The position numbers and the translations under genes were made by a program. 64,000 nucleotides of DNA from Saccharopolyspora galaxeae (GTDB lineage Bacteria; Actinomycetota; Actinomycetes; Mycobacteriales; Pseudonocardiaceae): contig NZ_JADDUE010000010.1 of assembly GCF_016526145.1 (NCBI RefSeq), forward strand, positions 1 through 64,000, written 5' to 3'. The notes below the pieces were generated by a model that saw nothing but the letters and a program-made list of their open reading frames with translations, ran no database searches and was not told the DNA's origin. Below, one piece after another: positions 125 through 54,853 of the stretch. Numbering within the stretch: position 1 is the stretch's first letter; every line of letters starts with the position of its first letter.

Positions 125-175
125 GAGTGAACGGACTGTTCGTCCCACTAGATCGGTCACACGGTCCGTTCACTC
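125..175 (+). repeat. 51-bp hairpin repeat, copy 1
   Basis: First of seven 51-bp copies. It begins GAGTGAACGG and ends CCGTTCACTC, so the outer ten bases pair perfectly. The centre reads CCCACTAGATCGG, which is less symmetrical than in other copies. It starts four bases after the ahcY stop codon. Taken here as the + orientation (TAGAT core on the + strand). Confidence 0.9.
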
Positions 176-17765: not shown

Positions 17766-17816
17766 GAGCGAACGGACCGTTGGTCCCAATAGATTGGGCG
17801 AGCAGTCCGTTCACTC
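17766..17816 (+). repeat. 51-bp hairpin repeat, copy 2
   Basis: It begins GAGCGAACGG and ends CCGTTCACTC, with a CCCAATAGATTGGG core that is itself palindromic. + orientation. It sits between the convergent hydratase and acetyltransferase genes, 20 bases from each stop, and is the only hairpin there. Confidence 0.9.
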
Positions 17817-29084: not shown

Positions 29085-29135
29085 GAGCGAACGGCCTGTT
29101 CGCCCAATCTATTGGGACCAACGGTCCGTTCACTC
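29085..29135 (-). repeat. 51-bp hairpin repeat, copy 3 (inverted)
   Basis: It begins GAGCGAACGG and ends CCGTTCACTC, but the core reads CCAATCTATTGGG, so it is inverted relative to copies 1, 2, 5, 6 and 7. It starts 22 bases after the amine oxidase stop. Confidence 0.9.
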
Positions 29136-29195
29136 CGGTATGAGTGCGCGGATCGAGCGGCGCCCGCGTGTGTCGGCCGAGTGCCCCTGATCGCG

Positions 29196-29246
29196 GAGTG
29201 AACGGCCTGTTCGTCCAATCTATTGGGACCAGCGGGCCGTTCACTC
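29196..29246 (-). repeat. 51-bp hairpin repeat, copy 4 (inverted)
   Basis: It has perfect outer arms GAGTGAACGG/CCGTTCACTC and the CCAATCTATTGGG core. Same inverted orientation as copy 3, 60 bp away, forming a direct tandem pair between the amine oxidase and corA genes. Confidence 0.9.
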
Positions 29247-33069: not shown

Positions 33070-33189
33070 GGGGATCTCCTCACCGAACGAGCACGCCGAT
33101 CACGACCGAAGAACGCGAAGGCCAATGGTTACCACACGTGGCCGGAGGGCAGTCGACCGCCTACTGGCGGACCGTGCTCGTGGCCGGAC

Positions 33190-41196: not shown

Positions 41197-42315
41197 ATGG
41201 CTCGACCCGACCTGGCGGAAACCTCCGAACAACCCCCGATGGTCCCGCTGGAGCTCCTGCGCCGGGACGTGGACACCGTGCTGGAGCGGTTCATGGGCTC
41301 CTGCTCGGCACGCGCCCCCGATCCCGGCCTGCCGCCGCTGATCGAGGTCGTCCGGGACTTCCAGGCGGGCGGCAAACGGCTGCGCCCGCTGTTCTGCTGC
41401 GCCGGATTCGCCGCAGCGGGCGGGGATCCGCGCAGCGAGGTGGTGCTCGGCGTGGCAGCGGCGCTGGAGCTGTTCCACTCCTTCGCGTTGATCCACGACG
41501 ACGTGATGGACGGTTCCGACCAGCGGCGCGGCAAACCGACCGTGCACCGCCGGTTCGGGGCGCAGGTGCCGGAACAGCGTGGTGCACCGGGAGCTTCCGG
41601 CGCGGCACCGGCTCCGGTCGATGCCGGGTTCGGCGTCAACGTGGCGATCCTGCTCGGCGACGCGTGCCTGGTGTGGTCCGACGAGCTGTTGCACAGCGCG
41701 GGGATCCCGCAGCAGCGGTGGGCGGACGTGCGGCCGTTCGTGCAGGCCATGCGCACCGAACTCATCGCGGGGCAGTACCTGGACCTGGCGGGCGAGGGCG
41801 CGCTGGACCCGCTGGACCAGGCGTGGCGGGTGATCCGGCACAAGACCGCGGCCTACACCGTGGCCCGGCCGATGCAGATCGGCGCCGCGCTCGCCGGTGC
41901 GGACCGCGAGCTGCTGGCCCGCTGCGCGGAGTTCGGCTTCCTGCTCGGCACGGCGTTCCAGCTGCGCGACGACCTGCTCGGAGTGTTCGGCGACCCGGCC
42001 GTGACCGGGAAATCCAGGCTGGACGACTTGCGCGCGGGAAAGCCGACGGTGCTCATCGGACTCACGTGGCGGCGCGCCACCGAGCAGCAGCGCCGCACGA
42101 TCCGGCGGCTGCACGGTGCGCCCGGGCTCGACGAGGAAGGGGCGGCGCAACTGCGCGGCATCATCGACGAAACCGGGGCGCACCGGGCGGTTCGCGAGCT
42201 GATCGAGCAGCGCACGGCCGAAGCGCTGGGTGTGCTCGGGCGAATGCCGGTGCGCCGGCCGGTGCGGGAAAGCCTCGCGGAACTCGCCGGGCAGGCCACC
42301 CGGCGGCAGCGCTGA
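41197..42315 (+). CDS. Polyprenyl diphosphate synthase (geranylgeranyl-type)
   Basis: 372 residues, trans-isoprenyl diphosphate synthase. GGKRLRP at 58-64 binds IPP. The first Asp-rich motif is D101-D-V-M-D105 in FALIHDDVMDGSDQRRG, and the second is FQLRDDLLGVFGD. Phe96 is five residues before the first motif with no insertion in it, a pattern of short-chain (C20-type) enzymes. A Gly/Ala/Pro-rich loop after residue 125 is unusually long. ATG at 41197 with GAGAGG upstream. First gene of an operon with the Trp/Asp-rich protein and ABC1 kinase. It likely feeds the nearby terpene synthase. Confidence 0.87.
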   Translation: MARPDLAETSEQPPMVPLELLRRDVDTVLERFMGSCSARAPDPGLPPLIEVVRDFQAGGKRLRPLFCCAGFAAAGGDPRSEVVLGVAAALELFHSFALIHDDVMDGSDQRRGKPTVHRRFGAQVPEQRGAPGASGAAPAPVDAGFGVNVAILLGDACLVWSDELLHSAGIPQQRWADVRPFVQAMRTELIAGQYLDLAGEGALDPLDQAWRVIRHKTAAYTVARPMQIGAALAGADRELLARCAEFGFLLGTAFQLRDDLLGVFGDPAVTGKSRLDDLRAGKPTVLIGLTWRRATEQQRRTIRRLHGAPGLDEEGAAQLRGIIDETGAHRAVRELIEQRTAEALGVLGRMPVRRPVRESLAELAGQATRRQR

Positions 42316-42378
42316 ACGCCGCCCGTTGCGCGAGTGCCACCACGCAATCGAAAACGAATGCAATGAGGAGGATCGCAA

Positions 42379-42786
42379 ATGGGCACCATCGACACTTTTC
42401 GCGACCTCGTCGGAAACATCGCCGACGATGCGAAAAAAGCGTTCGACGAACTCCTGGATCGGCGCTGCGACGATTGGGACGGGGATTACTGGGACGACCC
42501 GTGGGACTGCGATCCGTGGGACTGGGACGATCGGCCCGGGGATGATTGGCGCAGGGGTGATCGGCGCACCGGGAATCGGCGCGGCGACTACCGCCGCCGC
42601 GGCCAGCGCCGCGGCAGTCCCCGAGTGGTCGAGGCCGGCCGCTCGCACCCGGCCGTGGCCGAGCCGCGGCGCAGCCCGGAGGACGGGCTGCCGGACCAGA
42701 TAAGGCAGCTCAACGACTCGGTCGACTCGTTGCGGGCTTCGCTGCAGCAGGCACCGGGCCCGGCCGCGCCCGAGCACCGGACCTGA
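42379..42786 (+). CDS. Trp/Asp-rich small protein of unknown function
   Basis: 135 residues, no family recognised. Residues 1-28 form an amphipathic helix-like start (TFRDLVGNIADDAKKAFDELL). Residues 31-57 are extremely Asp/Trp-rich, with seven Trp and a repeated (D/P)WD pattern. Residues 57-82 are Arg-rich. A final helix-like segment, PDQIRQLNDSVDSLRASL, spans 105-122. An excellent GAGGAGG ribosome site precedes the ATG, and the TGA overlaps the next ATG (TGATG). Tight coupling between prenyl synthase and ABC1 kinase genes argues for a real protein, perhaps an acidic metal-binding or scaffold partner. Confidence 0.7.
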   Translation: MGTIDTFRDLVGNIADDAKKAFDELLDRRCDDWDGDYWDDPWDCDPWDWDDRPGDDWRRGDRRTGNRRGDYRRRGQRRGSPRVVEAGRSHPAVAEPRRSPEDGLPDQIRQLNDSVDSLRASLQQAPGPAAPEHRT

Positions 42787-44270
42787 TGGGCCTGGACCGG
42801 CTGCGGCGAGTCGCCGGGGTGCTCGGTGCGCTGTGCCGCACCGAGCTCACCCGGACCGTGCACCGCGGAACCGGCGACGCGGCCCCGCACGAGCGCGCTC
42901 GCGAGGTCCGGCGGGCGCTGGAGGAGCTCGGCCCGTTCTACATCAAGCTCGGGCAGATGCTCTCCACCCGCCCGGACATCGTCTCCCGGACGATGATCGC
43001 CGAGCTGGAGAACCTGCACGACCACGTGCACCCGCTGCCGTTCTCGGATTTCGAGTCGGTGCTGGCCGCCGACCTGGGCAGCGAGTGGAAGGAGCAGTTC
43101 CGCGACTTCGACATCCTCGAACCCGTCGGCACCGCCTCGCTGGCGCAGGTCTACCGGGTCACGTTGCGCGACGGCTCGCCCGGCGTGGTCAAGATCCAGC
43201 GCCCGGACGTGGCCGCGACCGTGCTGGAGGACATGGCGCTGCTGCGGAAAGCGGCGCGCATCGTCGGCAAGGGAGCGCCGCGGTTCAACGCGGTCGTCGA
43301 CATCGACGCGATGCTGGGCGTGCTGTTCGACGCGATGCGCCCGGAACTGGACTTCACCGCCGAGGCCGCGAACATGCGCGAAGCCCGCAAAGCCGTCCGC
43401 GACTTCCCGACGCTGGACGTGCCGACGGTGGTGCAGGCGACCCGGCACGTGCTGGTGCAGACGCTGGCACCGGGCCGGTCGGTGCGCGAGATCGCGCCCG
43501 AGGAACTTCCCGCGGCGCTGCGCAAAGCGATCGGCACGGACCTGCTGGCGTTGCAGTTCCGGGGTTTCTTCGTGAACCGCATGTTCCACGCCGACCCGCA
43601 CCCGGGCAACATCTTCGTCGACGGCGAAGGCCGGGCCACGCTGATCGACTGGGGCATGGTCGGCCGGGTCGACCGCCGCACCAGCATGACGATCATGCTG
43701 GTGCTGTTGCACCTGGCGCGCAACGACGGGCACGGGCTGGCCAAGGCGTGGACCGAACTCGGCCACGCCACCGCCTGGGCGGACGTGCCCGCGTTCGCCG
43801 CGGACATGGCCGCGCTGACGCCGCAGATCGCGGCGGCCTCGTTGTCCGAGCTGAACTTCGGGGTGACGCTGACCAGCGTGCTGCAGCAGTCCACCAAGCG
43901 CGGCATCAAGACCAACCCGGTGATCTCGGTGCTGGGCAAGTCGTTCGCCAACATGGAAGGCTCGGTGCGCTTCCTCGCCCCGGAACTGTCCATCACGGAC
44001 GTGTTCCAGCAGCAATTGGCGCGGATGCTGGCCGAACTTGCCAAGGATGCACTGTCAGCGGGCAACGCCGCGCGCACGCTGGTGGAGCTGATGCTTGTCG
44101 CGGACACGCTCACGGAGCAGGCGCGCAGCGTCACCGGCGACCTGTCCGATCGGGAATTCACCTTCCACGTCAACCAGAACGCGCCCGCGCGGACCCCGCG
44201 TTCCACGAGGCTGCGCGACGGCTTGGCGGGCGCGGCGCTCGCCGCGCTGTGGGCGCGCCGCAACCGGTGA
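42786..44270 (+). CDS. ABC1/UbiB-family atypical kinase
   Basis: 494 residues. The family-specific KxGQ motif is K54-L-G-Q57 in FYIKLGQMLSTRPDI. A nucleotide-loop variant GTASLAQVYR (115-124) is followed by the lysine strand VVKIQRPD. The kinase core has FHADPHPGNIFVDGEGRATLIDWGMVGR, where the metal-binding motif is IDWG instead of the usual LDFG. A C-terminal hydrophobic stretch (LAGAALAALW) may contact membrane. ABC1 proteins support isoprenoid quinone metabolism and extraction of prenyl lipids from membranes. In operon with a prenyl synthase it may act on a terpenoid or quinone, which is inference. Confidence 0.88.
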   Translation: MGLDRLRRVAGVLGALCRTELTRTVHRGTGDAAPHERAREVRRALEELGPFYIKLGQMLSTRPDIVSRTMIAELENLHDHVHPLPFSDFESVLAADLGSEWKEQFRDFDILEPVGTASLAQVYRVTLRDGSPGVVKIQRPDVAATVLEDMALLRKAARIVGKGAPRFNAVVDIDAMLGVLFDAMRPELDFTAEAANMREARKAVRDFPTLDVPTVVQATRHVLVQTLAPGRSVREIAPEELPAALRKAIGTDLLALQFRGFFVNRMFHADPHPGNIFVDGEGRATLIDWGMVGRVDRRTSMTIMLVLLHLARNDGHGLAKAWTELGHATAWADVPAFAADMAALTPQIAAASLSELNFGVTLTSVLQQSTKRGIKTNPVISVLGKSFANMEGSVRFLAPELSITDVFQQQLARMLAELAKDALSAGNAARTLVELMLVADTLTEQARSVTGDLSDREFTFHVNQNAPARTPRSTRLRDGLAGAALAALWARRNR

Positions 44271-44273
44271 TCG

Positions 44274-44324
44274 GAGTGAACGGCCCGCTGGTCCCACTAG
44301 ATTGGACGAACAGTCCGTTCACTC
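44274..44324 (+). repeat. 51-bp hairpin repeat, copy 5
   Basis: Perfect outer arms GAGTGAACGG/CCGTTCACTC, core CCCACTAGATTGG. It starts three bases after the ABC1 kinase stop codon and is followed 24 bp later by copy 6 in the same orientation. Confidence 0.9.
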
Positions 44325-44348
44325 GGAACGTTCCGGCGGGTGCGTTTG

Positions 44349-44399
44349 GAGTGAACGGAACTTTGGTCCCACTAGATTGGTCAAACGGTCCGTTCACTC
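44349..44399 (+). repeat. 51-bp hairpin repeat, copy 6
   Basis: Perfect outer arms, core CCCACTAGATTGG. Direct tandem partner of copy 5. It ends 46 bp before the DUF397 start codon and so would also form part of that gene's upstream region. Confidence 0.9.
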
Positions 44400-44445
44400 G
44401 GGGCGAAAGGTTCCGGGGGCGGGCAGCGATGTTGGAGGAGAGCAC

Positions 44446-44640
44446 ATGACGCGACAGGTGACGGGATGGCGGAAATCCAGCCGGTCATCACAGCAGACCG
44501 CTTGCGTCGAGGTAGGCCGTGCTGCTGGCGGCGCAGCGGTGCGTGACACCAAAGATCGCGCCGCCGGGTACTTCACCACGACGAGCGGCCAGTGGACCGC
44601 GTTCGTCGAAGCCGTCAAAGACGGGCGCTTCGACGGCTGA
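44446..44640 (+). CDS. DUF397 domain protein
   Basis: 64 residues. The whole protein is one DUF397 domain: GWRKSSRSSQQTACVEVGRAAGGAAVRDTKDR in blocks, ending in WTAFVEAVKDGRFDG. ATG at 44446 has GGAGGAG upstream. DUF397 genes are numerous in actinomycetes and usually sit beside an XRE-type regulator, for which they act like small antagonists. No such regulator gene is adjacent here, so this copy is an orphan. Confidence 0.88.
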   Translation: MTRQVTGWRKSSRSSQQTACVEVGRAAGGAAVRDTKDRAAGYFTTTSGQWTAFVEAVKDGRFDG

Positions 44641-44649
44641 ACCTAGCGA

Positions 44650-44682
44650 TGATCCCCGGCGGAACGCGACCGCCGGGGATCA
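44650..44682. terminator. Bidirectional terminator hairpin
   Basis: TGATCCCCGGCGG pairs perfectly over 13 bp with CCGCCGGGGATCA around a 7-nt loop. It lies between the convergent DUF397 and terpene synthase genes, nine bases after one stop and 30 bases before the other. Confidence 0.88.
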
Positions 44683-44711
44683 CGCATGAGGCGACCCCGC
44701 AACGCGGCCGA

Positions 44712-45839
44712 CTAGTCGAGTTGCGTCCACCACCAGGCGATCGACGGGAAGGGCAGCGGCTCCGCGCGGCGCACTGCAGGAGAGTCCACAACGGACCCAT
44801 TCAACCGCAGCCGTACGGCCGGAGTGATCCCGTCCGCGGCGTAGAGCACGGTGTACCGGGGAGTCCGCAGGCTCCAGTCGATGTTGGCGCGGATGCCGTG
44901 GGCGAGGCTGTCCAGGTAGATCCGCAACGGCTCGGAGGCGCCGCGGCGGACCTGCTCGCGCAACCGCAGGAACAGCAGCATCAGCCGGTCCCGGTAGGCG
45001 ATCGCGGTCGCCTCGGCTTCCTGCACATCGGTGCCGGTGACGGTGCGCACCGCGTCGTTGAGGTTGTGCCCGTCCTGCTGGCCGAGCATTTCCTTGTGCC
45101 GGGAGACCCGGTCGTTGTCCAGCGCGGCCACCATCCAGAACAGTTCGGTCAGCGCCCGCACCGGCGCGGCGTGCAGTTCGGAACCGGGAATTTCGGCCGC
45201 ATTGGCGAATTCGAACATGGATTGGGTCGGCGGGCCGCCGCAGTCGTGCAGGCGGACGACGAAGAAGTCGTCGAGGGTCTTCGGTCCACCCGCGGCGCGT
45301 TGCGCGTTCAGCTGCACGACTCCGAACAACCACCTGCGGTGCGCGTTGATCCACCGTTCGGTCTGGGCCGGAGTCGCCAGCCGCCGGTAGGAATGCGCCA
45401 GATCGCAGAGCCCGAGCAGGTGCGGATCCCCGCGGCACAGCGATTCATCACCGGTGTCCAGGATGCGCAGCAGTCGCGCGGCCACCGGGATGAACCGGGT
45501 CGGGTCCGTGCAATTGCCGCCTTCGTCGCAATGCGCGTCGTCGAAGGAGAATCCCCAATACACCCAGTTCGCGGCGATCTGGTAGTGCTCGGTCACCGCG
45601 TTCGGCACCATTCCGCCGTAGAAATCGGCCGAGGTGGAGGCGTACCAGCGCTCCAGTTCGCCCGCGTTGCGCACCAGGCCGAGCCGCTGCGCCCACTGCC
45701 CGGAACGGCGGTGCACCGCGTCCTTGTCCGGGTGCATCACGGGTTCGATCGGGCAGAAGAAGGGCGGGATTTCGATGTGCTGCTCGGTCGGCCCGGCGTC
45801 GGGCTCCGCCGGTGCCGCGCTGCTCGTCCGCACGTCCAT
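44712..45839 (-). CDS. Class I terpene synthase
   Basis: 375 residues, bacterial terpene cyclase fold. The Asp-rich metal motif lies in FSFDDAHCDEGG (D100, D101, D105, E106). The NSE triad is N242-D-R-V-S246-R-H-K-E250. The diphosphate sensor region is R196-L-H-D199, and the C-terminal RY pair is R328-Y329. It ionises a prenyl diphosphate with Mg2+ and cyclises it; product is not predictable. The tail carries three consecutive Trp. ATG at 45839 preferred; GTG at 45845 is an alternative. The PLAT-like gene ends 83 bp upstream on the same strand, and a prenyl synthase lies 3.5 kb away. Confidence 0.9.
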   Translation of the reverse strand: MDVRTSSAAPAEPDAGPTEQHIEIPPFFCPIEPVMHPDKDAVHRRSGQWAQRLGLVRNAGELERWYASTSADFYGGMVPNAVTEHYQIAANWVYWGFSFDDAHCDEGGNCTDPTRFIPVAARLLRILDTGDESLCRGDPHLLGLCDLAHSYRRLATPAQTERWINAHRRWLFGVVQLNAQRAAGGPKTLDDFFVVRLHDCGGPPTQSMFEFANAAEIPGSELHAAPVRALTELFWMVAALDNDRVSRHKEMLGQQDGHNLNDAVRTVTGTDVQEAEATAIAYRDRLMLLFLRLREQVRRGASEPLRIYLDSLAHGIRANIDWSLRTPRYTVLYAADGITPAVRLRLNGSVVDSPAVRRAEPLPFPSIAWWWTQLD

Positions 45840-45922
45840 GTTCACCCCGAGATCGTCGTTGCGGCGGTTCACCTGGGAAAGCAGAGCCGGAGCGCCGGGT
45901 GGGGCCGGCGCTCCGGGCGGGC

Positions 45923-46345
45923 TCACGTCCGGGTCAGGTACAGGACGAGCCCGTAGGGCTGGTGCAGCCAGATCTGCTGTCCGGTGCCTTCCAGCCGCGA
46001 GTTGTCGAATTCCCGCGGACGGTATTCCGGGTTGACCACCACCCAAACCCGTTCGACCAGCCAGCCGGGGTACTCGCCGGCCGGGTGCATTCGGATGTAG
46101 GTGGGAAACCGCTCCAGGTCCTCGGTTTCCAGTTGCGGACGTCTGGGGTCTTTGTACTGGGCGTCGGTGACGTTGGCTCCTTCGCCGAGCACGAACCGGT
46201 CGGTCTCGCCGCGCCGGAAGTCGTCCCGGCCGGTGCTGAGCCCGAATTCGCGTCCGGCGATGCCGAGGTAGACATCGCTTCTGGTGTCCGCGTTCGCTGC
46301 GTCGGCGGTGGCGATGTTCGCTTCGATCCGGGTGATGGACGCCAT
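45923..46345 (-). CDS. PLAT/LH2-like single-domain protein upstream of the terpene synthase
   Basis: 140 residues, no signal peptide. ITRIEANIATADAANADTRSDVYLGIAGREFGLS, DDFRRGETDRFVLGEGANV and YPGWLVERVWVVVN follow the order of the PLAT/LH2 beta-sandwich (T.D..V+L.I.G, F.RG..D.F, GW+++.V.V), read here as blocks. PLAT domains bind lipids or protein partners, for example in lipoxygenases. GTGAGG lies before the ATG. It precedes the terpene synthase by 83 bp and is probably co-transcribed. A role in delivering a hydrophobic substrate or product is inference. The domain call is by eye. Confidence 0.62.
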   Translation of the reverse strand: MASITRIEANIATADAANADTRSDVYLGIAGREFGLSTGRDDFRRGETDRFVLGEGANVTDAQYKDPRRPQLETEDLERFPTYIRMHPAGEYPGWLVERVWVVVNPEYRPREFDNSRLEGTGQQIWLHQPYGLVLYLTRT

Positions 46346-46569
46346 GCTCGCCTCACTTCCTCTGCTCGTTCCGGCGCTCCCGCCGGGTTTTCGGAAACGG
46401 CGGAGTGTGCTGGTAGCGGAAATGTCCCGGGAACGGAATCGATTCTAAGGCTCGCGCGGCGGCGTCGGCACTGCGCTGAGCGGGTCACGCCCGTGACACT
46501 TTGGTGCGCGGGTGCCGAATTGTTCCCGATCGAGCTCGGGGTGTTCCGGTGTCGCGGAAAATTGCGGTT

Positions 46570-47484
46570 TCAGCGCGGTGCCGGCCAGGACTCCAGCGTG
46601 CGCCGGGTCTCGAAGCGCCGCAGCAGGCCGGTGCGCGGATCCCGGAATTCGAGCACGGACGCGAGCAACTGCAACGGGTCGGTGAAGTCGTCGTCGGCGC
46701 GGTCCCGGACCTGCGGGTAGAGGTCGTCGCCCGCGATCGGCACACCCAGCGCGGCCAGGTGCACCCGCAGCTGGTGGGTGCGTCCTGTCGTGGGCAGCAG
46801 CCGGTAGCGGCCCAGGCCGTCGCGGTGCTCGATGAGCTCCACGCGGGTTTCGCTGTTCGGCGGGCCAGGAACCTCTTGCGCCTGCAGCACACCGCGTTCT
46901 TTGACGATCCTGCTGCGCACCGTGCGCGGCAGCACCAGCTGTGGATCGTGCCGGGCCACGGCGAGGTATTCCTTGCGCACCGCCCGGTCCTGGAACAAGC
47001 CCTGGTACTCGCGCCGCGCATCGGGCCGGACGGTGAACAGCACCAGCCCGGCCGTCATCCGGTCCAGCCGGTGCGCCGGGCTCAGCTCCGGCAGCTCCAG
47101 CTCGCGGCGCAACCGCACCAGCGCGGTCTCGGTGATGTGCCCGCCGCGCGGGGTCGTCGCCAGGAAATGCGGCTTGTCCGCGACGAGGATGTCCGCGTCC
47201 CGGTGCAGCACCTCGACGGAGTGCGGAACGGGCGGTTCCGGCGCGGTTTCGCGCTGCATCCACAGCGAAGTGCGCGGCGCGAACGGGGTTTCGGCATCGA
47301 CGAGCCCGCCCGGACCGGCGACCCGCTGCTCGCGCAGCATCCGATCGACCTCGGCTGCGGCGATGGGCAGCCGGTCGACGAGGTGGTCCCGCATGGTCGG
47401 CCACGTCCCGCCGTCCGGCGTGCGCAGCCGCACGGCGTCCAAGCCGTCCCGCTGCGGGAACGGGGAACGGGGTTTGCGTCGCAT
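46570..47484 (-). CDS. RluA-family pseudouridine synthase
   Basis: 304 residues. The catalytic block is LSPAHRLDRMTAGLVLFTV, with the active Asp in HRLDR. ILVADKPHFLATTPRGG is the preceding motif I, and GRYRLLPTTGRTHQLRVHLAALGVPIAGDDLYP the RNA-binding motif III. The N-terminus resembles a degenerate S4-like segment (RDHLVDRLPIAAAEVDRMLREQRV). It isomerises uridines in rRNA or tRNA; the target is not predictable. It is transcribed alone, away from tRNA-Cys. Confidence 0.87.
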   Translation of the reverse strand: MRRKPRSPFPQRDGLDAVRLRTPDGGTWPTMRDHLVDRLPIAAAEVDRMLREQRVAGPGGLVDAETPFAPRTSLWMQRETAPEPPVPHSVEVLHRDADILVADKPHFLATTPRGGHITETALVRLRRELELPELSPAHRLDRMTAGLVLFTVRPDARREYQGLFQDRAVRKEYLAVARHDPQLVLPRTVRSRIVKERGVLQAQEVPGPPNSETRVELIEHRDGLGRYRLLPTTGRTHQLRVHLAALGVPIAGDDLYPQVRDRADDDFTDPLQLLASVLEFRDPRTGLLRRFETRRTLESWPAPR

Positions 47485-47927
47485 CGCTGCCCAGCTTATG
47501 AGCCCGTCTTTGAACTCGTTTTGGGTAGGTGCCCGGGTAGCGGAACCTCATGCGCCGGTGCTCGGGTTGCGTACGTGGCGGAACCGGCTGACGCCGCTTG
47601 AAAAGGACAAACACCCAGAGCCGAACTTGGGATCCAAGACCGGCGCCAAGGGCTCCTCGCAGACGCATCTGCGCAGGTGATAGCGGGCCCAGCGGCTCGT
47701 TGCGTGATCGACCACTTCGCGGACAGCGCCCGTTCGGCGCAACTCGCGCCCACGCTGTGGGACGGCTCGGGCGGCGATTGACGCCCGGCACCGGTGGCGC
47801 AAGAATCCTCGGCATGAGTTCTGGTCTGGTCGCTCGCTTGCACGTCGATCTGCGGCGGCACGCAAGCGCGATCTGTGCTCGCTGAGCCGGAACGCGGCCG
47901 CGCCCGTCGTCCTTTGTGGACTTCCGT
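47485..47927. other. 443-bp region without a gene before tRNA-Cys
   Basis: No convincing ORF. It contains a 38-bp-spaced imperfect direct repeat, GTAGCGGAACC at 47537-47547 and GTGGCGGAACC at 47575-47585. GC content is patchy. A short CTTTGTGGACTTCC lies just before the tRNA and may belong to its promoter or leader. The remainder shows nothing I can name and could be gene remnants. Confidence 0.5.
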
Positions 47928-47998
47928 GGCGGAGTGACCGAGCGGCTAGGTAAGGGCCTGCAAAGCCCTTCACGCGGGTTCGAATCCCGTCTCCGCCT
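47928..47998 (+). tRNA. tRNA-Cys (anticodon GCA)
   Basis: 71-nt cloverleaf. Acceptor stem GGCGGAG/CTCCGCC, anticodon loop CTGCAAA with GCA at 47960-47962 on an AGGGC/GCCCT stem, and a T-arm containing GGTTCGAATCC. The discriminator base is U, as expected for tRNA-Cys. The 3' CCA is not encoded. Confidence 0.95.
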
Positions 47999-48194
47999 CA
48001 AAAACCAGCCCGCACGTCCGTCCATTCCGGACAGGAATCGGCTGATCCTCGACGGACGCCCGATGCGCGTTCCAGGTCGAGCGCACCTGCCGCGGCCCGA
48101 AGCCGAGCAGCAGCGGGCTTTCCGGCCGCAGTCCCGCAATCGCCGGGCGCGCGGCTCGGTGGACCACATCGAAACTCCTGTGGAGGAGGCAGCG

Positions 48195-49316
48195 TTGACG
48201 CCGCTTTCGGTCCTGGACCTCGCACCGGTTTCCGCCGGGAGCACCGCTGCCGAGGCGCTGCACGACACCGTCGACCTCGCGCGGCACGTCGACCGCCTCG
48301 GATATCGACGCTTCTGGCTGGCAGAACACCACCTGGCGCCCGGGGTGGCATCGTCATCTCCCGCGGTGCTGATCGGCTCCGTGCTCGGCGCCACCGGCCG
48401 GATCCGGGTCGGCTCCGGTGCCGTGCTGCTCGGCCTGCACACGCCGCTGCGCGTCGCCGAGGACTTCGGCACCCTCGCGCACCTGCACCCGGATCGCGTC
48501 GACCTCGGCCTCGGGCGTTCCGGGCTGGCCAAGGCCGCCGAGCTGGCCACCGCACGACAAGGGGCGCCGCGACCGCTGGAATCCCGAGTGGTGGACGGTT
48601 TGCCGGTGCCGCGCGCGGCGCTGCGCCCGGGTTCGCGGGCGGCGGCCGAGCGGCTGGCCGCGCACTCCCGGCTGCTCGGCGCGAACGGCGGCGACGACGA
48701 CTACGGCGAACAAGTCCGCGAAGTCCTCGCGTGGCTGGATGGCACGTTCCTCGACGGCGACGGGTTGCCCGCGCGGGCGGTGTCCGCGGAAGGCGCGTCG
48801 TTGCAGGTGTGGATCCTGGGTGCCAGCGCGGGCCAGAGCTCGCGGACGGCGGGTGAGCACGGGCTGCCGTTCGTCGCGAACTACCACACGGTACCGGGCG
48901 CGGTACTGGAAACCGCCGCCTCGTACCGGGAATCCTTCCGGCCTTCGGCCCAGCTGGCCGAGCCGTACCTGATCGTCTCGGCGGACGTGCTGGTCGCCGA
49001 GGACGATGCGACCGCGCGCCACCTCGCCGAACCCTTCGCGGAGTGGGTGCACGAGATCCGCTACGGCGAGGGCGCTCCGCCGTACTCGACGCCTGCGGAT
49101 TCGGCGGGCCGTGGCTGGACCGAGGGCCAGCTGGAAGGGGTCGCCGACCGGTTGCAGACCCGCATCGTCGGCTCCCCGGAAACCGTCGTGGAACGGCTGG
49201 ACGTGCTGCGCCGCGTCACCGGCGCGGACGAGCTGCTGATCACCACGATCACCCACGGGCACCGGGATCGGCTGCGGTCTTTCGAGCTGCTCGCCGAAGC
49301 CTGGGCGCAGCGCTGA
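48195..49316 (+). CDS. LLM-class flavin-dependent oxidoreductase (luciferase-like)
   Basis: 373 residues. SVLDLAPVSAGSTAAEALHDTVDLARHVDRLGYRRFWLAEHH, AVLIGSVLGATGRIRVGSGAVLLGLHTPLRVAEDFGTLAHLHPDRVDLGLGR (blocks) and ELLITTITHGHRDRLRSFELL are typical of bacterial luciferase-like monooxygenases of the LuxA/MsnO group. They use FMNH2 or F420. The start is a TTG at 48195 with GGAGGAGG at 48182-48189. The frame is open back to 47916, but that part includes the tRNA gene and is rejected. Substrate is unknown. Confidence 0.87.
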   Translation: MTPLSVLDLAPVSAGSTAAEALHDTVDLARHVDRLGYRRFWLAEHHLAPGVASSSPAVLIGSVLGATGRIRVGSGAVLLGLHTPLRVAEDFGTLAHLHPDRVDLGLGRSGLAKAAELATARQGAPRPLESRVVDGLPVPRAALRPGSRAAAERLAAHSRLLGANGGDDDYGEQVREVLAWLDGTFLDGDGLPARAVSAEGASLQVWILGASAGQSSRTAGEHGLPFVANYHTVPGAVLETAASYRESFRPSAQLAEPYLIVSADVLVAEDDATARHLAEPFAEWVHEIRYGEGAPPYSTPADSAGRGWTEGQLEGVADRLQTRIVGSPETVVERLDVLRRVTGADELLITTITHGHRDRLRSFELLAEAWAQR

Positions 49317-49318
49317 TC

Positions 49319-49356
49319 GGCCGCGGACTCGCCGGGCCGCGGGCAGGGGCCGCGGC
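49319..49356. terminator. Possible terminator hairpin
   Basis: GCCGCGG and CCGCGGC in the 42-bp gap between two convergent genes can pair; a third CCGCGG inside the loop allows alternative folds. Confidence 0.4.
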
Positions 49357-49358
49357 TG

Positions 49359-49973
49359 TCAGCACAACGGCGAGATGGCCGTCGGGTAGGCGATCGTGGA
49401 TGTCGCGCTGGTGATGTTCTCCGGCTCGTGCCGCGGCGGCCAGATCCCGCGCGCGAGCGCGTCGCCCCGGATCTCCTGGCGCGCCTTGAGGTCCGGGTAC
49501 GGCCAGACGTGGGTGATGCGGGGTGCCCCGTCCAGCGCGAACATCGCCGTCGTCAGCGGATACATCCGGGTTCTTCGCGGTAGTGCGTCGTGCCATCCCG
49601 ACATCGTGGGCGTCAGCCCGCCGATTCTGAGGTGGTAGGTGTGGAACTCGTAGACCCCGCCGAAGTGTCCGGTCTGGATCGGCGGCAGGTACGGGAACGG
49701 TGCGAACGTCTCGATGTGGAACCGTTCCAGGTGCGCCCCGATGCCGAACGGGTCGCCGGTGGTCAGCACCCGCTGCCGTTCTTGGGCGATCTGCTGGGCA
49801 TCATCGAATTCCCGCAGCAGCAACAGGTCGCCGCCGTCCGCGCCGTGCTCGGTCTCCCAGCAGCCCAGCAGCCGTCCTCGGGTGCCGTCGCTGGTGTAGA
49901 TTTCCAGCGCGGTGAGGGCGTCGGAAATCGCCCCCGGCTTCATCGACAGCGTGGTGAGTTCGTGGAGCTGCAT
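49359..49973 (-). CDS. NIPSNAP-family protein
   Basis: 204 residues made of two ferredoxin-like NIPSNAP halves. MQLHELTTLSMKPGAISDALTALEIY opens the first. GGVYEFHTYHLRIGGLTPTMSGWHDALPRRTRMYPLT is the strongly conserved start of the second, and ITHVWPYPDLKARQEIR completes it. The family function in bacteria is unclear; some members look like dimeric alpha-beta barrel enzymes. It stands alone on the minus strand. A TGAGACGATCTCA palindrome lies 109 bp upstream of the start. Confidence 0.82.
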   Translation of the reverse strand: MQLHELTTLSMKPGAISDALTALEIYTSDGTRGRLLGCWETEHGADGGDLLLLREFDDAQQIAQERQRVLTTGDPFGIGAHLERFHIETFAPFPYLPPIQTGHFGGVYEFHTYHLRIGGLTPTMSGWHDALPRRTRMYPLTTAMFALDGAPRITHVWPYPDLKARQEIRGDALARGIWPPRHEPENITSATSTIAYPTAISPLC

Positions 49974-50081
49974 CCGGTTCCTTCCTCGGACTGGCCGCGA
50001 GGTGTTCGCGCGGCGGCGCGCCGCGGTAGCGTACTGAGCGCGTCAATGATCCGTTGTGGACAGGTCCCGTTCAGTCGAACC

Positions 50082-50094
50082 TGAGACGATCTCA
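50082..50094. promoter_or_regulatory. Palindrome upstream of the NIPSNAP gene
   Basis: TGAGACGATCTCA is an inverted repeat with five-base arms next to an AATTTT tract, between the binding-lipoprotein and NIPSNAP genes. It may be an operator, but no regulator gene is adjacent. Confidence 0.4.
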
Positions 50095-50227
50095 AATTTT
50101 GCGTTCGGCCGCGTCAGCCGCGGAAATGCCGTGGTGGTGCCGGTTTCGCGCGAATTCGCCCGAGCCGCCGAGCCGCTGTGCCGCCGATGTCCGTCCTCAT
50201 CGGACAAGGGTTTTCCCTCGGTTTCGG

Positions 50228-51205
50228 CTAGCGGTGTTGCGCCGCCGCGGACAGATCCGGCACGACGTTGTCGATCAGGTGCGGAATCGCCAGCACACCG
50301 GGTTCGCGCAACGCCAGCCAGGAATCCGCGAGCACCGGCAGGTAACCGCCGCGCCGCACCACGTTCAGATTCCGGAAAACCGGGGAACTCTCCAGCTGCG
50401 GGCGCAGGGCCGGATCCGGGTAGGAAGTCAGCAGCACGTCGGTGTCCACTCGGTGCAGGCTTTCCGCGCTCAGCTGAGCGGAGAATCCTTTGCCCGGAAG
50501 ATGTTGTGCGGCCGAGGCGAACCGCATTCCGAATTGTGCGAGTGTGCGGGCTGTGACGTCGCGCGGTGTGCGGATCACGCCGAGCCCGCCCGGGCTGTGC
50601 GCGAGCGTGATCGCGAACTCCGCGCCTGCCAACTGCGGGTGCGCCGCCGAAGCATCCCGCATTCGGCGCTCCACATCGGACACCAGGTCGTCCGCTCGGG
50701 CGGATTCGCCCAACGCTGCGCCGACCTGCCGCGTGGTGGCCTGCCAAGGTTCCTCGTCCGGCGCGGTTTCGAATGCCGTGGTCGGCGCGATCGCCGACAG
50801 CGCCGGGTATTCGCGGTCGATGTAGTAGTCGCTGCCCGCCAGGATCAGGTCCGGGTGCAAAGCGGCGATGGCTTCGGCCGAATATCCCTCGGAGGTCGGC
50901 CGCAGCGTCGTGGGGTGCCAGTCGGGACGCCGCTGCCACGGCGGCAATTCCGCCGACAACGGCAGTCCCACCCCTACTGGTCGCACGCCCAGCGCCAGCG
51001 CCGCGTCCACGTCGGCAGGACCGAGCGCGACCACTCGCGCCGGATGTCGCGGCACGAACGCCGTGCCTAGCCGATGCGCCACCGGAGTCCGCGGCTCGGC
51101 GGGCGGCGGAGCGGTCCCCGCGCACCCGCCGAGCAGGACCAGCAGCAGCAACACCGCCGCCACGCGTTTCGTCCCGGAGGGCTGAGCACGTCCCGCAGCG
51201 ATCAC
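50228..51205 (-). CDS. Iron-siderophore ABC transporter substrate-binding lipoprotein (orphan)
   Basis: 325 residues. A type II signal peptide ends in the lipobox LLGGCAG near residue 27. The class III binding-protein fold follows: RVVALGPADVDAALALGVRPVGVG, AIAALHPDLILAGSDYYIDREYPALSAIAPT and a long backbone helix around 150-180. It should bind a ferric siderophore at the outer membrane face. No permease or ATPase genes are adjacent. GTG at 51205 lies only eight bases from a TAGCCT -10-like element, so the mRNA may be leaderless. An iron box overlaps that promoter. Confidence 0.87.
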   Translation of the reverse strand: MIAAGRAQPSGTKRVAAVLLLLVLLGGCAGTAPPPAEPRTPVAHRLGTAFVPRHPARVVALGPADVDAALALGVRPVGVGLPLSAELPPWQRRPDWHPTTLRPTSEGYSAEAIAALHPDLILAGSDYYIDREYPALSAIAPTTAFETAPDEEPWQATTRQVGAALGESARADDLVSDVERRMRDASAAHPQLAGAEFAITLAHSPGGLGVIRTPRDVTARTLAQFGMRFASAAQHLPGKGFSAQLSAESLHRVDTDVLLTSYPDPALRPQLESSPVFRNLNVVRRGGYLPVLADSWLALREPGVLAIPHLIDNVVPDLSAAAQHR

Positions 51206-51208
51206 GCG

Positions 51209-51227
51209 AGTAAGGCTACCCTTGCTC
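51209..51227 (-). promoter_or_regulatory. Iron box (DtxR/IdeR/DmdR type)
   Basis: AGTAAGGCTACCCTTGCTC is close to the actinobacterial iron-repressor consensus, core TAGGCTAACCT. It covers the likely -10 of the siderophore-binding lipoprotein gene, so transcription should be blocked when iron is sufficient. Confidence 0.7.
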
Positions 51228-51331
51228 GCGGCTCGGTCGGGAGCGCCGGATTCCGGCCGAGCGGGCTCGTGCCGGTTGCTCGGTCGGAAAACCGCAGCGC
51301 GGAGCCGCGCGCGATCTCCGGTCGGGAATCC

Positions 51332-51772
51332 TCAGTCCTGCACCGGTTCCAGCACGAACACCGGGATGACCCGGTCGGTCTTGGTCTGGTACTCGGCGTA
51401 CTGCGGGAACGTCTCCACGGCCCGATCCCACCAGCGGGCGCGCTCGTCGCCTTCGGCCAGGTGCGCGCGGTACTCCCGCACATCGGCACCGTCCTGCAGC
51501 CGGACCAGTGGGTTCGCGCGCAGGTTGTGGTACCAGTTCGGGTTCTTCGGGGAGCCGCCGAGCGAGGCCACCGCGGCGTACCGCTCGCCGTCGCTCACCC
51601 GGATCACCGGTGACTTGCGGACCGCCCCGCTCTTGGCTCCCTCGGTGGTCAGCACCACGCACGGGTACCCGTTGATCGTGCGGCCCTCCGCGCCGCCGGT
51701 GGCCTCGTAGCGGGAGACCTGGTCGGCCACCCAGTCGAACGTGCTGGGAGCGTATTCGCCTTGGAAGGACAT
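51332..51772 (-). CDS. Deazaflavin-dependent nitroreductase-family oxidoreductase (DDN-like)
   Basis: 146 residues. TINGYPCVVLTTEGAKSGAVRKSPVIRVSDGERYAAVASLGGSPKNPNWYHNLRANPLV (read in blocks) is the signature of the F420-dependent DDN family, with the conserved TxGAKSG and NPxWYHNLxANP motifs. Members reduce quinones and nitro compounds with F420H2. GGAGGAAA precedes the ATG at 51772. It is divergent from the PadR gene across 270 bp. The frame is open to 51994 but has no homology there. Confidence 0.87.
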   Translation of the reverse strand: MSFQGEYAPSTFDWVADQVSRYEATGGAEGRTINGYPCVVLTTEGAKSGAVRKSPVIRVSDGERYAAVASLGGSPKNPNWYHNLRANPLVRLQDGADVREYRAHLAEGDERARWWDRAVETFPQYAEYQTKTDRVIPVFVLEPVQD

Positions 51773-52042
51773 GCGGTTTCCTCCTGCCGATCGGTAGTGC
51801 CCGCGCAGCGGGTCCACAACCGGCAACGCCTGCGGGGCTGCGAACAATCCCGGCACGTCGGCGCGGTCCGGGACGGCGGGCCGAATTCTTTCGGCATCCA
51901 TTGTGGACGGAACTGGTGCCGCGCGGAACGCACCGCCTTCGGCGAGTCGGCCCGAATGCGGAGCCGATCTCGCGGGGGTCGTCGGCCGCGCCACGTTTCC
52001 GGGAATTGATCTTGGTCGACGGTCACCGAATCATAGGTTACT

Positions 52043-52585
52043 GTGACACATGTGTGGATAGACGTCCTCCTGCTGGCGAATCTGGCCGAACAGCCGTGCC
52101 ACGGATACGAACTCCGCAGGAGGGTCGAGCACAGCACCGGCTACGCCCTGTCCAACAACTCGCTGTACCCGGCGCTGCGACGATTCACCGAAGCCGGGGC
52201 CGTCACGCGCACCCAGGAGCCGCAAGAGGGCCGTCCGCCCCGGCACGTCTACGAACTCACCGACGTAGGCCGGGAATTGCTGCACGACATGCTCGCCGAC
52301 CTGCCCGAGGAACTCGCGCGGGACGAGCCGGAGTTCATGTCGCGGCTGGCGTTCTTCGACTGGCTCACCCCGGACGAACGGCTGCGCGTGCTCGACGCGC
52401 GCCGCAGCGCCTTGAAGAACCGCCGCGAGCGGATCGCCGCGTTCTGCGCGCAGGCCGAGCCGGGCGGCTGGAGCCACGAGGCGCTGCGCGAGACGAGCCG
52501 CCGCATCCACGCCGAACTCGACTGGCTCGACCAGGTGCGCACCGGCGCGCCTGATGGTCCACCGCGAAAAGAGGAGATCGGATGA
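52043..52585 (+). CDS. PadR-family transcriptional regulator
   Basis: 180 residues. Winged helix with [48 protein letters not shown] in blocks, typical PadR, and a C-terminal helical domain containing [31 protein letters not shown] at 52043 lies shortly after TAGGTT, so the transcript may be leaderless. A 10-bp palindrome ACACATGTGT at 52046-52055 overlaps the start. The stop overlaps the P450 start as ATGA, so regulator and P450 are one operon. Confidence 0.87.
52046..52055. promoter_or_regulatory. Palindrome at the PadR start, possible autoregulatory site
   Basis: ACACATGTGT is a perfect 10-bp palindrome three bases inside the GTG start. PadR proteins often bind ATGT/ACAT half-sites at their own promoters. 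Confidence 0.45.
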
Positions 52586-53793
52586 CCGCGCCCGCCCTGC
52601 CGCAGCTACCTTTCGACCGTCCGAACGTGCTGGAACTGGCCCCGCTCTACGACGTGCTGCGGCGGCAGGCGCCGATCTCCCGGGTGCGCACGCCCGCCGG
52701 TGATCAAGCGTGGCTGGTGACCTCCTACGACGAGGCTCGGGTGCTGTTCGCCGACCCGCGGTTCGGCCGCTCGCACCCGGCGCCGGAGCGGGCCGCGCGG
52801 ATCTCGAACGCCGCGATCATCAACGGGCCCACCGCCGACTACGACACCGAACGCGCCGAGCACACCCGGATGCGCAAGCTGCTCACGCCCGCGTTCTCCG
52901 CGAAGCGGATGCGGCTGCTGACCGATCACGTGCGGGAGATCGTGGACGAGCGCCTCGATGCGTTGCAGGCGGCGCACGACCGGGCACCGGGTGAACCGGT
53001 GGACCTGCACGAGCACCTGTCGTTCCCGCTGCCGGTCCGGGTGATCTGCGGCCTGCTCGGGGTGCCGTTCGCCGACCGCGAGTACTTCCACGGCCTGTCG
53101 GACCGGATGAACCGGATGAGTTCCGGTGACGACCCGCAGGACGCTGCGGAGGAGTTCCGCGCCTACATGGGCAGGCTCGCCGAGGCCAAGCGCGCCGAAC
53201 CGGGCGAGGACGTGGTCTCCGACCTCGTGGCCGCGCAGCGGGACGACCCGGACTTCGACGACGCGGAGATGACGAAACTGGCCCGCGGGCTGCTGTTCGC
53301 CGGGCACGAGACCACGGTCAACCAGATCGACATCGGTGTGCTGATGCTGCTGACCGATCCGGCGCGGCGGGATGCGTTCGCCGCCGACCCGGAAGGTCTG
53401 GTGCAGCAGACCGTGGAGGAGATGCTGCGGTTGTCCGCGCCGGGTGGGCTCGGCCTGCTGCGGTACGCGCACGAGGACGTCGAGATCGGCGGTGTGACGA
53501 TCGAGACCGGTGACGCGGTGGTGATCTCGCAGGCCGCGGCGAACCGGGACGCGGCGGTGTTCGCGGACGCGGAGGACTTCGACCCGTCGCGGCGGCCCAA
53601 CACGCACCTGGCCTTCGGGCACGGCGCGCACTTCTGCATCGGTGCGAGCCTGGCCCGCACCGAGCTGCGGGTGGTGTTCACCGCGCTGTTCCAGCGCTTC
53701 CCGCAGCTGCGCCTCGGCGTCGGGCTGGACGAACTGGTGGTGCGCAGCGACCGCGTCACCGGGGGAGTCGAGGGGCTGCCCGTCACCTGGTGA
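52582..53793 (+). CDS. Cytochrome P450
   Basis: 403 residues, soluble bacterial class I P450. The I-helix oxygen motif is A240-GHETT, the ExxR motif lies in [11 protein letters not shown], and the heme-thiolate Cys352 is in [32 protein letters not shown] is the C-helix block. It hydroxylates an unknown hydrophobic substrate using ferredoxin electrons. It is coupled to the upstream PadR regulator, suggesting induction by a phenolic or xenobiotic ligand. No ferredoxin gene is adjacent. A 51-bp repeat lies 15 bases after the stop. Confidence 0.92.
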
Positions 53794-53808
53794 GCGCTGA
53801 ACCCAGCT

Positions 53809-53859
53809 GAGCGAACGGACCGCTCGTCCCAATAGATTGGACGAACGGTCCGTTCGCTC
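53809..53859 (+). repeat. 51-bp hairpin repeat, copy 7
   Basis: It begins GAGCGAACGG and ends CCGTTCGCTC, so both arm ends carry compensating changes that keep pairing. The core is CCCAATAGATTGG. It fills the gap between the convergent P450 and transketolase genes and ends one base before the transketolase stop. Confidence 0.9.
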
Positions 53860-53860
53860 G

Positions 53861-54853
53861 TCAGCCGAGTTCGGTGAGCACCCGGTCGACGATGGTGTTG
53901 CGGGCGAGTCCGTAGCGTTCGTGCAACGTGGGCAGTGCGCCCGCGTCCAGGAACTCGTCCGGCAGCGAGATCGGTGCGACCCGGGTGCCGCGGCCGGCTT
54001 TGACCAGCTCGGCGGCCAGCGTCTCGAACAGCCCGCCGACCACGGTGTGGTTCTCCAGCGTGACCACCAGCCGGTCGCCTGCGGCTTCGGCTAGCACGGT
54101 CTCGGTGTCGAACGGTTTGATCGTGGGGCTGTGCACCACCGCGACGTCGACGTTGTGCGCGGCCAGGTCCTCGGCTGCCTGCAGCGCGCGCATCGTCATC
54201 AGTCCACTCGAGACGAATACGACGTCGTTGCCGCCGCGCAGCACGGAAGCCTTGCCCAGCTGGAAGGTGTGGTCGTACTCGTCGAGCACGGTCGGCACCT
54301 TGCCGCGCAACAGCCGCAGGTACGTAGGTCCCTGCGATGCGGCCAGTTGCGGTAACGCCTGCTCGATGTCCACCGAGTCGCATGGGTCCACAATGGTCAG
54401 ATTCGGCATCCCGCGGAAGATCGCGATGTCCTCGGTGGCCTGGTGGCTCGGGCCGTATCCGGTGGTAAGGCCGGGCAGGCCGCCGACGATGTTCACGTTC
54501 AGGTTCGGCTCGGCGATGTCCAGGCACAGGAAGTCGTACGCGCGCCGGGACGCGAACACGCTGTAGGTGGAGGCGAACGGCACCAGGCCGACCTCGGCCA
54601 TCCCGGCGGCCGTGCCGAAAAGCAGCTGTTCGGCCATGCCCATCTGGAAGTAGCGGTCCGGGTGGGCCTCTGCGAACACGTGCATGTCGGTGTACTTGCC
54701 CAGGTCGGCGGTGAGCCCGACGATCCGCTGGTCGCGCTCGGCCGCGGCGGCCAGCGCGTGGCCGAACGGCGCCGGAGCGGTGCGCTGGTCGGCATCGGCG
54801 AACGACGCGATCATCGCCGAGGTGGTGAGGCGCTTCTTGGTGGGCGTGCTCAT
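53861..54853 (-). CDS. Transketolase, C-terminal subunit
   Basis: 330 residues, the pyrimidine-binding and C-terminal domains of a split transketolase. IVGLTADLGKYTDMHVFAEAHPDRYFQMGMAEQLLFGTAAGMA carries the conserved catalytic Glu (MAEQ). PGLTTGYGPSHQATEDIAIFRGMPNLTIVDPCD and VVTLENHTVVGGLFETLAAELV are family blocks. The ATG overlaps the N-terminal subunit stop (ATGA), so the two are made in equal amounts. Together they form a ThDP-dependent ketol transferase. Small split transketolases often serve specialised sugar or antibiotic pathways; the role here is open. Confidence 0.88.
   Translation of the reverse strand: MSTPTKKRLTTSAMIASFADADQRTAPAPFGHALAAAAERDQRIVGLTADLGKYTDMHVFAEAHPDRYFQMGMAEQLLFGTAAGMAEVGLVPFASTYSVFASRRAYDFLCLDIAEPNLNVNIVGGLPGLTTGYGPSHQATEDIAIFRGMPNLTIVDPCDSVDIEQALPQLAASQGPTYLRLLRGKVPTVLDEYDHTFQLGKASVLRGGNDVVFVSSGLMTMRALQAAEDLAAHNVDVAVVHSPTIKPFDTETVLAEAAGDRLVVTLENHTVVGGLFETLAAELVKAGRGTRVAPISLPDEFLDAGALPTLHERYGLARNTIVDRVLTELG

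Follow-up and report, generated by a model that had tools for sequence, protein, structure and literature searches.

A family of REP/BIME-like 51-bp palindromes at gene ends in Saccharopolyspora

By sequence comparison, Saccharopolyspora galaxeae carries a high-copy family of 51-bp palindromes that are located at gene ends, singly or in pairs, keep their places between strains, are gained and lost in tandem, have species-typical sequences and include a set of slowly changing conserved columns. By position, abundance and pairing, the 51-mer is REP/BIME-like, and it represents a new sequence type. The interpretation that we favor, with a probability of roughly 0.46, is that these extragenic palindromes are spread and homogenized by recombination, sit in the places of hairpin terminators and may be read as bound duplex DNA.

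Copies, anatomy and genomic position

The window (the whole stretch of DNA analyzed, 64,000 nucleotides of contig NZ_JADDUE010000010.1, with a G+C content of 70%) contains seven copies (Table 1). The coordinates, the uniform length of exactly 51 bp and the arms GAGYGAACGG and CCGTTCRCTC that had been given for them in the sequence-only reading, an earlier set of remarks on the window, were all borne out, as was the observation that the copies begin 3 to 22 bases past a stop codon (4, 19, 22, 3 and 15 bp for copies 1, 2, 3, 5 and 7, respectively, the stops upstream of copies 3 and 7 being TGA) or follow a neighboring copy (copies 4 and 6). Copy 7 ends 1 bp short of the stop of the converging gene, and copies 3 and 4 have the core reversed relative to the other copies in the window. 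Copies 5 and 6 form a pair of 75 bp from start to start, which lacks the box described below. A small DUF397 gene (44446-44640, + strand) separates copy 6 from a terpene synthase gene and has its own classical hairpin behind it (44650-44682, -27.3 kcal/mol); this hairpin and the one near copy 1 (186-220, -31.0 kcal/mol), to which the same reading had pointed as independent structures, are both present. At the gathering score, the only Rfam match in the whole window is a tRNA at 47928-47998, with none at the palindromes. The window also contains a tandem gene duplication, in which two adjacent genes at 32212-34044 repeat each other at a spacing of about 975 bp (a 300-nt block is 80% and a 279-nt block 86% identical).

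Table 1. Palindrome copies and the associated box in the window
Feature	Position	Strand	Context
Copy 1, 51-bp palindrome	125..175	+	Convergent gene ends; 4 bp past TGA 118-120
Copy 2	17766..17816	+	Convergent ends of enoyl-CoA hydratase and small acetyltransferase-like genes; TGA 19 bp upstream
Copy 3	29085..29135	-	3' member of a pair by core orientation; after copper amine oxidase gene
Box, GCCGACAC...CGATCC type	29150..29177	-	In the spacer of copies 3 and 4; first base 42 bp outside copy 3, directed at copy 3
Copy 4	29196..29246	-	First member of the copy 3/4 pair; follows neighbor copy
Copy 5	44274..44324	+	Short-spacer pair with copy 6; 3 bp after ABC1-kinase stop (TGA)
Copy 6	44349..44399	+	Second pair member, directly behind copy 5; ahead of DUF397 gene
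Copy 7	53809..53859	+	Between converging P450 and transketolase-type genes

Every exact-arm copy among the matches listed is 51 bp long. The arms (positions 1-10 and 42-51) are nearly invariant, positions 4 and 48 excepted, and the unit ends are GAGT or GAGC on one side and CACTC or CGCTC on the other, the flanks not being conserved to that degree. Further inward, conservation is seen at columns 12, 14, 16, 18, 20 and 21 and at their mirror positions, and variation at columns 11, 13, 15 and 17 and, in the right half, at 33, 35, 39 and 41. Each arm is itself a dyad, such that the unit consists of two GTGAACGGNCCGTTC-like dyads with centers at positions 11 and 41, i.e. 30 bp apart. The LexA box (GAAC N4 GTTC) does not fit the 51-mer dyad, in which the spacing is 5.

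The units occur singly, in pairs and in short arrays; the two members have the same orientation in 25 of the 29 pairs and opposite orientations in the remaining 4. A second conserved box, GCCGACACGCCCGCGC...CGATC, is located beyond one edge of the element and directed at it. With up to 2 mismatches, 30 of 59 occurrences of the box are close to an element. In a matrix search, 43 of 126 copies have the box and 83 have none, a share that is indicative given that the matrix was built from 47 flanks of the same copies (with the threshold placed at the 99% level for shuffled sequences). The box is located 5' of the core in 39 of these 43 copies (on both sides in 11 of the 39) and on the 3' side only in 4, and lies 41-44 bp from the element in 46 of 54 placements; many of the longer pairs carry it in the spacer.

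Genome-wide (6.4 Mb in 34 contigs), the exact-arm pattern is matched by 118 copies versus 0 for a reversed-pattern control, which excludes chance. A genome search with a covariance model of the 51-mer, as proposed in the sequence-only reading, yields at least 150 distinct matches for a model built from 40 copies, which strongly decayed copies escape. With a weight matrix derived from 40 copies (score >30), we obtained 126 copies that form 97 clusters, 68 single and 29 pairs. The clusters are located between convergent genes in 48 cases, tandem genes in 42 and divergent genes in 6, with 1 at an edge, exact fractions being limited by the sample (2.05 of 6.4 Mb, in part picked for the presence of copies) and by the purpose-built gene caller (1747 genes in the sample), which missed the DUF397 gene so that copies 5 and 6, really between two + strand genes, were tallied as convergent. 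In this sample, intergenic regions of at least 51 bp total 47 kb (convergent), 157 kb (tandem) and 98 kb (divergent). Among intergenic regions of at least 57 bp on C1 (1-244000), C11 and C3, an element is present in 22 of the 144 convergent ones, in 22 of the 427 between tandem genes and in 3 of the 211 between divergent genes.

None of the 97 clusters reaches further than 15 bp into a called gene, in agreement with the extragenic location described earlier for the window, and in 6 of them the element itself supplies the stop codon (GAGTGA, a 6-bp overlap). The distance to the nearest stop, a mapping that the sequence-only reading had suggested, has a median of 19 bp compared with 32 bp if placement were uniform (n = 90; none of 200 draws was this low); convergent ends are favored, and 37 of the 42 tandem clusters are closer to the stop than to the following start. 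Among relatives, all 24 loci examined (12 from congeners and 12 of 13 from other genera, locus L145 being left out) were called intergenic, 12 of them convergent, 9 tandem and 2 divergent, with 1 at a locus edge.

Conserved letters and the terminator niche

A palindrome at gene ends might function as an RNA hairpin, either as a two-way transcription terminator or as an mRNA 3'-end stabilizer, with its letters conserved by shared descent. The position in the niche of terminators fits this explanation, as do the strong folds of the seven window copies (all 10 strands folded reach -21.8 to -42.6 kcal/mol) and the unbiased orientation of the core that a two-way terminator predicts (21 same and 30 opposite in tandem contexts, 29 and 29 in convergent ones). 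The pairing itself, however, shows no sign of selection. The sequence-only reading had taken the arm changes of copy 7 to imply selection on the fold; the C4/G48 change is real and does pair, but the 108 distinct copies do not support such selection and contain no compensatory change, the absence of which had been named in advance as counting against the claim. Among arm pairs, none has a significant Watson-Crick excess over shuffled columns in these 108 copies (smallest p 0.10). Positions 4 and 48 are independent (59 Watson-Crick pairs versus 60.3 expected), and the pairs 11-41 (53 versus 63.9) and 13-39 (40 versus 56.5) fall below chance. Of 171 column pairs, 23 reach p up to 0.0025, and the sole mirror pair among them goes against pairing; subfamily history may be the cause of these deficits, and we do not claim selection for mismatch.

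Three further tests give the same picture. Mismatches between arms are slightly more numerous within a copy (3.99) than between copies (3.70); real copies fold slightly worse than two-copy chimeras (-29.4 versus -30.4 kcal/mol); and transcript-sense G-U mismatches are no more frequent than A-C ones (105 versus 112 in 51 tandem copies, 109 versus 125 in 58 convergent copies). Nor does the stem extend into the flanks, where no pairing excess was found at 15 offsets, and the element is not followed by a T run: none is apparent in the flank composition, and a pattern scan of positions 42000-55200 gives none at copies 5-7. Selection on RNA pairing is thus unsupported by four tests (column pairs, mismatch types, mismatches within and between copies, chimera folds). 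Given that there is no pairing excess and that chimeras fold as well, it is the letters and not the pairs that are kept. A terminator that needs just a strong stem would demand no compensatory change, so that a role as RNA is still conceivable; we consider it unlikely.

The relationship between the element and hairpin terminators can be seen from the intergenic regions themselves. Of the convergent intergenic regions that lack the element, 54% (39-71%, length-matched) contain a strong hairpin (-28 kcal/mol or stronger), compared with 24% of the tandem regions that lack it and 9% of the divergent ones. When the element is masked, another strong hairpin is found in 29% of the convergent intergenic regions that have it (31 of 46 had enough sequence), which is about the tandem level. 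This depletion of other hairpins beside the element implies that the element tends to occupy terminator places, and the fact that half-sites are conserved while pairing is not constrained suggests that the element is recognized as duplex DNA. Under the model we propose, a putative dimeric protein would recognize the gene-end element as double-stranded DNA, and the resulting complex might end or insulate transcription from both sides, where other gene pairs use a hairpin terminator; these are the least certain steps of the model. A protein-binding site, which was among the options listed in the sequence-only reading, is kept as a possible role. Stated widely, that the 51-mer is a selected gene-end element of the REP kind appears somewhat more probable than the opposite; the bound-DNA mechanism by itself is proposed tentatively, at odds clearly below even. 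A much more specific scenario, in which a dedicated dimeric protein sits at over 100 gene ends on paired dyads of 17 bp, spaced 30 bp apart, and insulates convergent units, with the site and the protein coevolving into a genus-specific version, seems to us rather improbable.

A protein dedicated to the element could alternatively serve to organize the chromosome, like those that bind nucleoid-occlusion and macrodomain sites. Apart from the 30-bp distance between the dyads, this possibility is suggested by the distribution of copies along the chromosome. In strain G074 of the same species, 850 kb without a listed copy (G074:C1:4692815-5542784), the largest gap between listed copies (the 99.9th percentile under random placement is 641 kb), is centered about 60 kb from the dnaA antipode. 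Furthermore, each of the complete congener genomes has one dense stretch of 0.2-0.6 Mb (G004:C1:5.22-5.42 Mb, G003:C1:5.30-5.87 Mb and G001:C1:0.69-0.92 Mb), some 0.9-1.6 Mb away from dnaA, and in G074 the copies are dense at about 0.65-1.2 Mb. The exclusion from the terminus that is hinted at by G074 is not repeated, however, in G001, G003 and G004, all of which have copies within about 160 kb of the dnaA antipode, and we regard a chromosome-organizing function as highly improbable.

Stability and turnover between strains and species

The covariance model detects at least 150 matches in strain G074 as well. Of the 62 copies on C1, C11 and C3, 61 align in place (at least 40 columns) in this strain and 54 are unchanged; the sole exception is a member of an exchanged pair (see below). 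Matching the strains by position only, by which 146 of 150 listed copies have a G074 counterpart no more than about 42 kb from where it is expected, proved too coarse. Strict collinear chains include 113 of the 150 listed copies at 3 kb versus 70-73 in redrawn controls, and 76 versus 38-45 at 300 bp.

Between the two strains, the element has 33 changes in 3123 sites (0.0106), compared with 164 in 9925 (0.0165) for other intergenic DNA, 219 in 13159 (0.0166) for third codon positions and 61 in 13148 (0.0046) for second codon positions. The changes are clumped, with 25 of the 33 in three copies (12, 7 and 6); the 6 belong to copy 7, whose place is taken in G074 by a diverged 47-nt version. The 19 variable columns account for 22 changes and the other 32 columns (about 1960 sites) for 11, a rate close to that of second codon positions in a contrast that is partly circular given that the variable columns were defined from the same genome. 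Taken as a whole, the element appears to change only moderately slower than other intergenic DNA. A first sample, 18 of the 30 top-scoring loci that lie within the genome's own DNA, had given 2 changes in 1377 sites and was biased by score; a second, of 40 loci selected for their place (minus a 269-bp piece of L341), gave 30 of 2397 versus 123 of 6137. The smaller rate difference in the place-based census of the 62 copies than in the first, score-biased sample led us to slightly lower our confidence both in the wider statement on a selected gene-end element and in the bound-DNA mechanism.

Several loci differ between the strains in the number or identity of the units. At C1:183863, a single copy corresponds in G074 to two identical 51-mers with a 34-bp spacer, and at C34:331855 a single copy corresponds to a pair with a spacer that is box-like by eye; in both cases, the flanks are intact. 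Loss via recombination between 51-mers, or gain, would explain such differences. At C1:149793-149946, a whole pair differs between the strains in sequence and box orientation, with the outer junctions in agreement, i.e. a cassette has been exchanged; the differences continue roughly 100 bp into the left flank, and import of a longer tract is possible. Copies might multiply and become homogenized via recombination between 51-mers, through tandem duplication, deletion and cassette exchange. Two other strain differences were noted next to copies: a tandem duplication of 16 bp in which one element ends (C21:546891 versus L362), and about 1.1 kb of extra DNA in G074 (L387, C1:1341800-1343700) beside copy C11:497834, compared with C11:497768-498218, with 43 bp of the own sequence matched at either end of the extra DNA.

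One copy has been a target of insertion. A 15,553-bp insert with a G+C content of 64% (G000:C11:246776-262344; L046, L047) is located within a 51-mer that is intact in G074 (empty site L382). The left junction keeps the first 15 bases of the 51-mer and the right junction the last 47, with a common 11-bp core, GAACGGCCTGT, which is present in 36 of 110 copies; the census copies 246713 and 262340 flank the insert. The insert encodes an FtsK/SpoIIIE-like protein, a pSAM2-type (RepSA-type) replication initiator, a small helix-turn-helix protein and a phage-type integrase, a gene set of the kind encoded by actinomycete integrative elements. The use of a copy as the landing site of an integrative element ties such repeats to gene transfer.

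The family is largely a feature of the genus. Each of the four other congeners has at least 99 matches (the two strands of the palindrome may count apart), at least one match is found in 8 of 31 genomes from other genera of the family, and none in 24 genomes from other families of the order; in a search of 296 genomes of the class at 1e-6 with stricter filters, matches were found only in the own genome and, at one locus, in one other. Counts of the dyad GAACGGNCCGTTC range from 87 to 274 in 6 genomes of the genus (0-2 for the control) and are at least 34 in 7 of the other 194 genomes of the family sampled (G025, G087, G093, G138, G144, G149 and G180). Same-length look-alikes with other letters exist, judging from the sequences, in a small number of further genera of this family. 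In two such genera, the dyads form arrays, namely a tandem array with a period of 30 in G017 (L158) and a single array of 17 TTGAACGGTCCGTTCAA-type dyads (up to 3 mismatches) between converging genes in G025 (L152, about 1438-2070), with spacings of mostly 31-33 or 23 bp. A model search of 20 named-organism loci (of 80 fetched) gave no match and hence no named carrier species. By protein similarity, the nearest named match is Saccharopolyspora sp. NFXS83 (89%), in a comparison from which the window's own genome and its close relatives may be missing; the best named protein matches also indicate the family Pseudonocardiaceae. We found no account of the 51-bp family, or of the letters of the 13-bp dyad, in the literature searched.

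Congeners have species-typical cores (7 to 17 copies each), mostly at other sites. In a comparison of orthologous intergenic regions, which the sequence-only reading had recommended, the element is mostly not shared at gene ends near the window; the P450 gene end is occupied in S. galaxeae, G001, G002 and G003 (1, 3, 3 and 3 copies, with different cores) and empty in G004. Homogenization inside each genome would produce this pattern, as would a single niche being occupied repeatedly.

The species-typical cores and the turnover of sites between species are also what would be expected of selfish REP- or MITE-like DNA that has no host function, is tolerated at gene ends and is selected out elsewhere, as are the changes in tandem number, the cassette exchange, the avoidance of genes and promoters, and a total rate of change only moderately under that of other intergenic DNA. 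This explanation is at odds with the retention of 61 of 62 copies in place on three contigs, with the slow change of the conserved columns and with the lack of signs of transposition. Specifically, a flanking repeat of at least 7 bp that could be a target-site duplication is present in 5 of 68 singles (7.4%) versus 8.5% under the null, and no transposase was recognized by eye among the ordinary-looking genes of 10 intervals between close copies, which cover part of the genome. Mobilization by a RAYT/IS200 enzyme was rejected because the Y1 transposase domain (PF01797) is found in none of the four congeners; the single Y1 match of the own genome (G000:C30:59796-60101, L212) is of the IS200/IS605 type by NCBIfam and has no element within its 3.3-kb locus. 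We therefore consider purely selfish DNA doubtful and prefer the reading of the 51-mer as a recombination-spread gene-end element.

Comparison with known repeats

REP-like repeats are best known from Proteobacteria, and many of them are explained by RAYT transposases. The suggestion in the sequence-only reading that the family could be REP-like fits the genome-wide data in that the elements are dispersed, extragenic and tied to gene ends; the selection on the fold through compensation that it had added did not hold up. REPs are units of 20-40 bp that lie within about 20 bp of 3' ends, prefer convergent and tandem over divergent intergenic regions, form pairs and arrays, and can supply a stop codon with their ends (PMC3733652). 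Unit length apart, the 51-mer resembles the GTAG REPs and BIMEs in all these aspects of a high-copy extragenic palindrome, including the stop codon, and it differs from the RAYT-associated GTAG REPs in its length of 51 bp, the lack of a GTAG/GTGG head, the lack of compensatory change and of a G-U excess, and the actinomycete host. Given that head tag, unit length and RAYT all fail, it does not belong to the GTAG family. In PMC3733652, the terms Actinobacteria and Actinomycet are absent from the main text, and the REP counts given for three actinomycete genomes in PMC12306157 are for other families. As in BIMEs, paired units (29 of 97 clusters) are combined with a conserved linker motif, here the box mostly 41-44 bp outside the element. 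The location at gene ends and the lack of a detected dedicated transposase are shared with the CGTC-tagged REPs, which have no dedicated transposase (PMC3733652); unlike those, the 51-mer has no terminal CGTC, this motif occurring only inside the arm (positions 17-20), where the first base, position 17, is divided between C (56) and G (52) among the 108 copies. Insertion of mobile DNA into REPs has also been reported (PMC1525189), and one 51-mer has received the integrative element.

Other types of repeats are less similar. Like MITEs, the element is short, non-coding and dispersed and has inverted-repeat ends, but there is no target-site duplication, a cognate transposase was not found and the entire unit is palindromic. 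With intrinsic terminators it shares a stem-loop at gene ends, and it departs from them in the missing T run and in a sequence that is conserved without compensation. A precedent for recognition of such repeats as a duplex is the action of gyrase on E. coli REPs (PMC3733652).

The family thus shows that an abundance and a position comparable to those of REPs can be found in an actinomycete genus in which no Y1 was detected in any of four congeners and in which half-sites, and not pairing, are conserved. It separates gene-end position and homogenization from the RAYT model and makes the possible DNA-binding role of a REP-like repeat directly testable.
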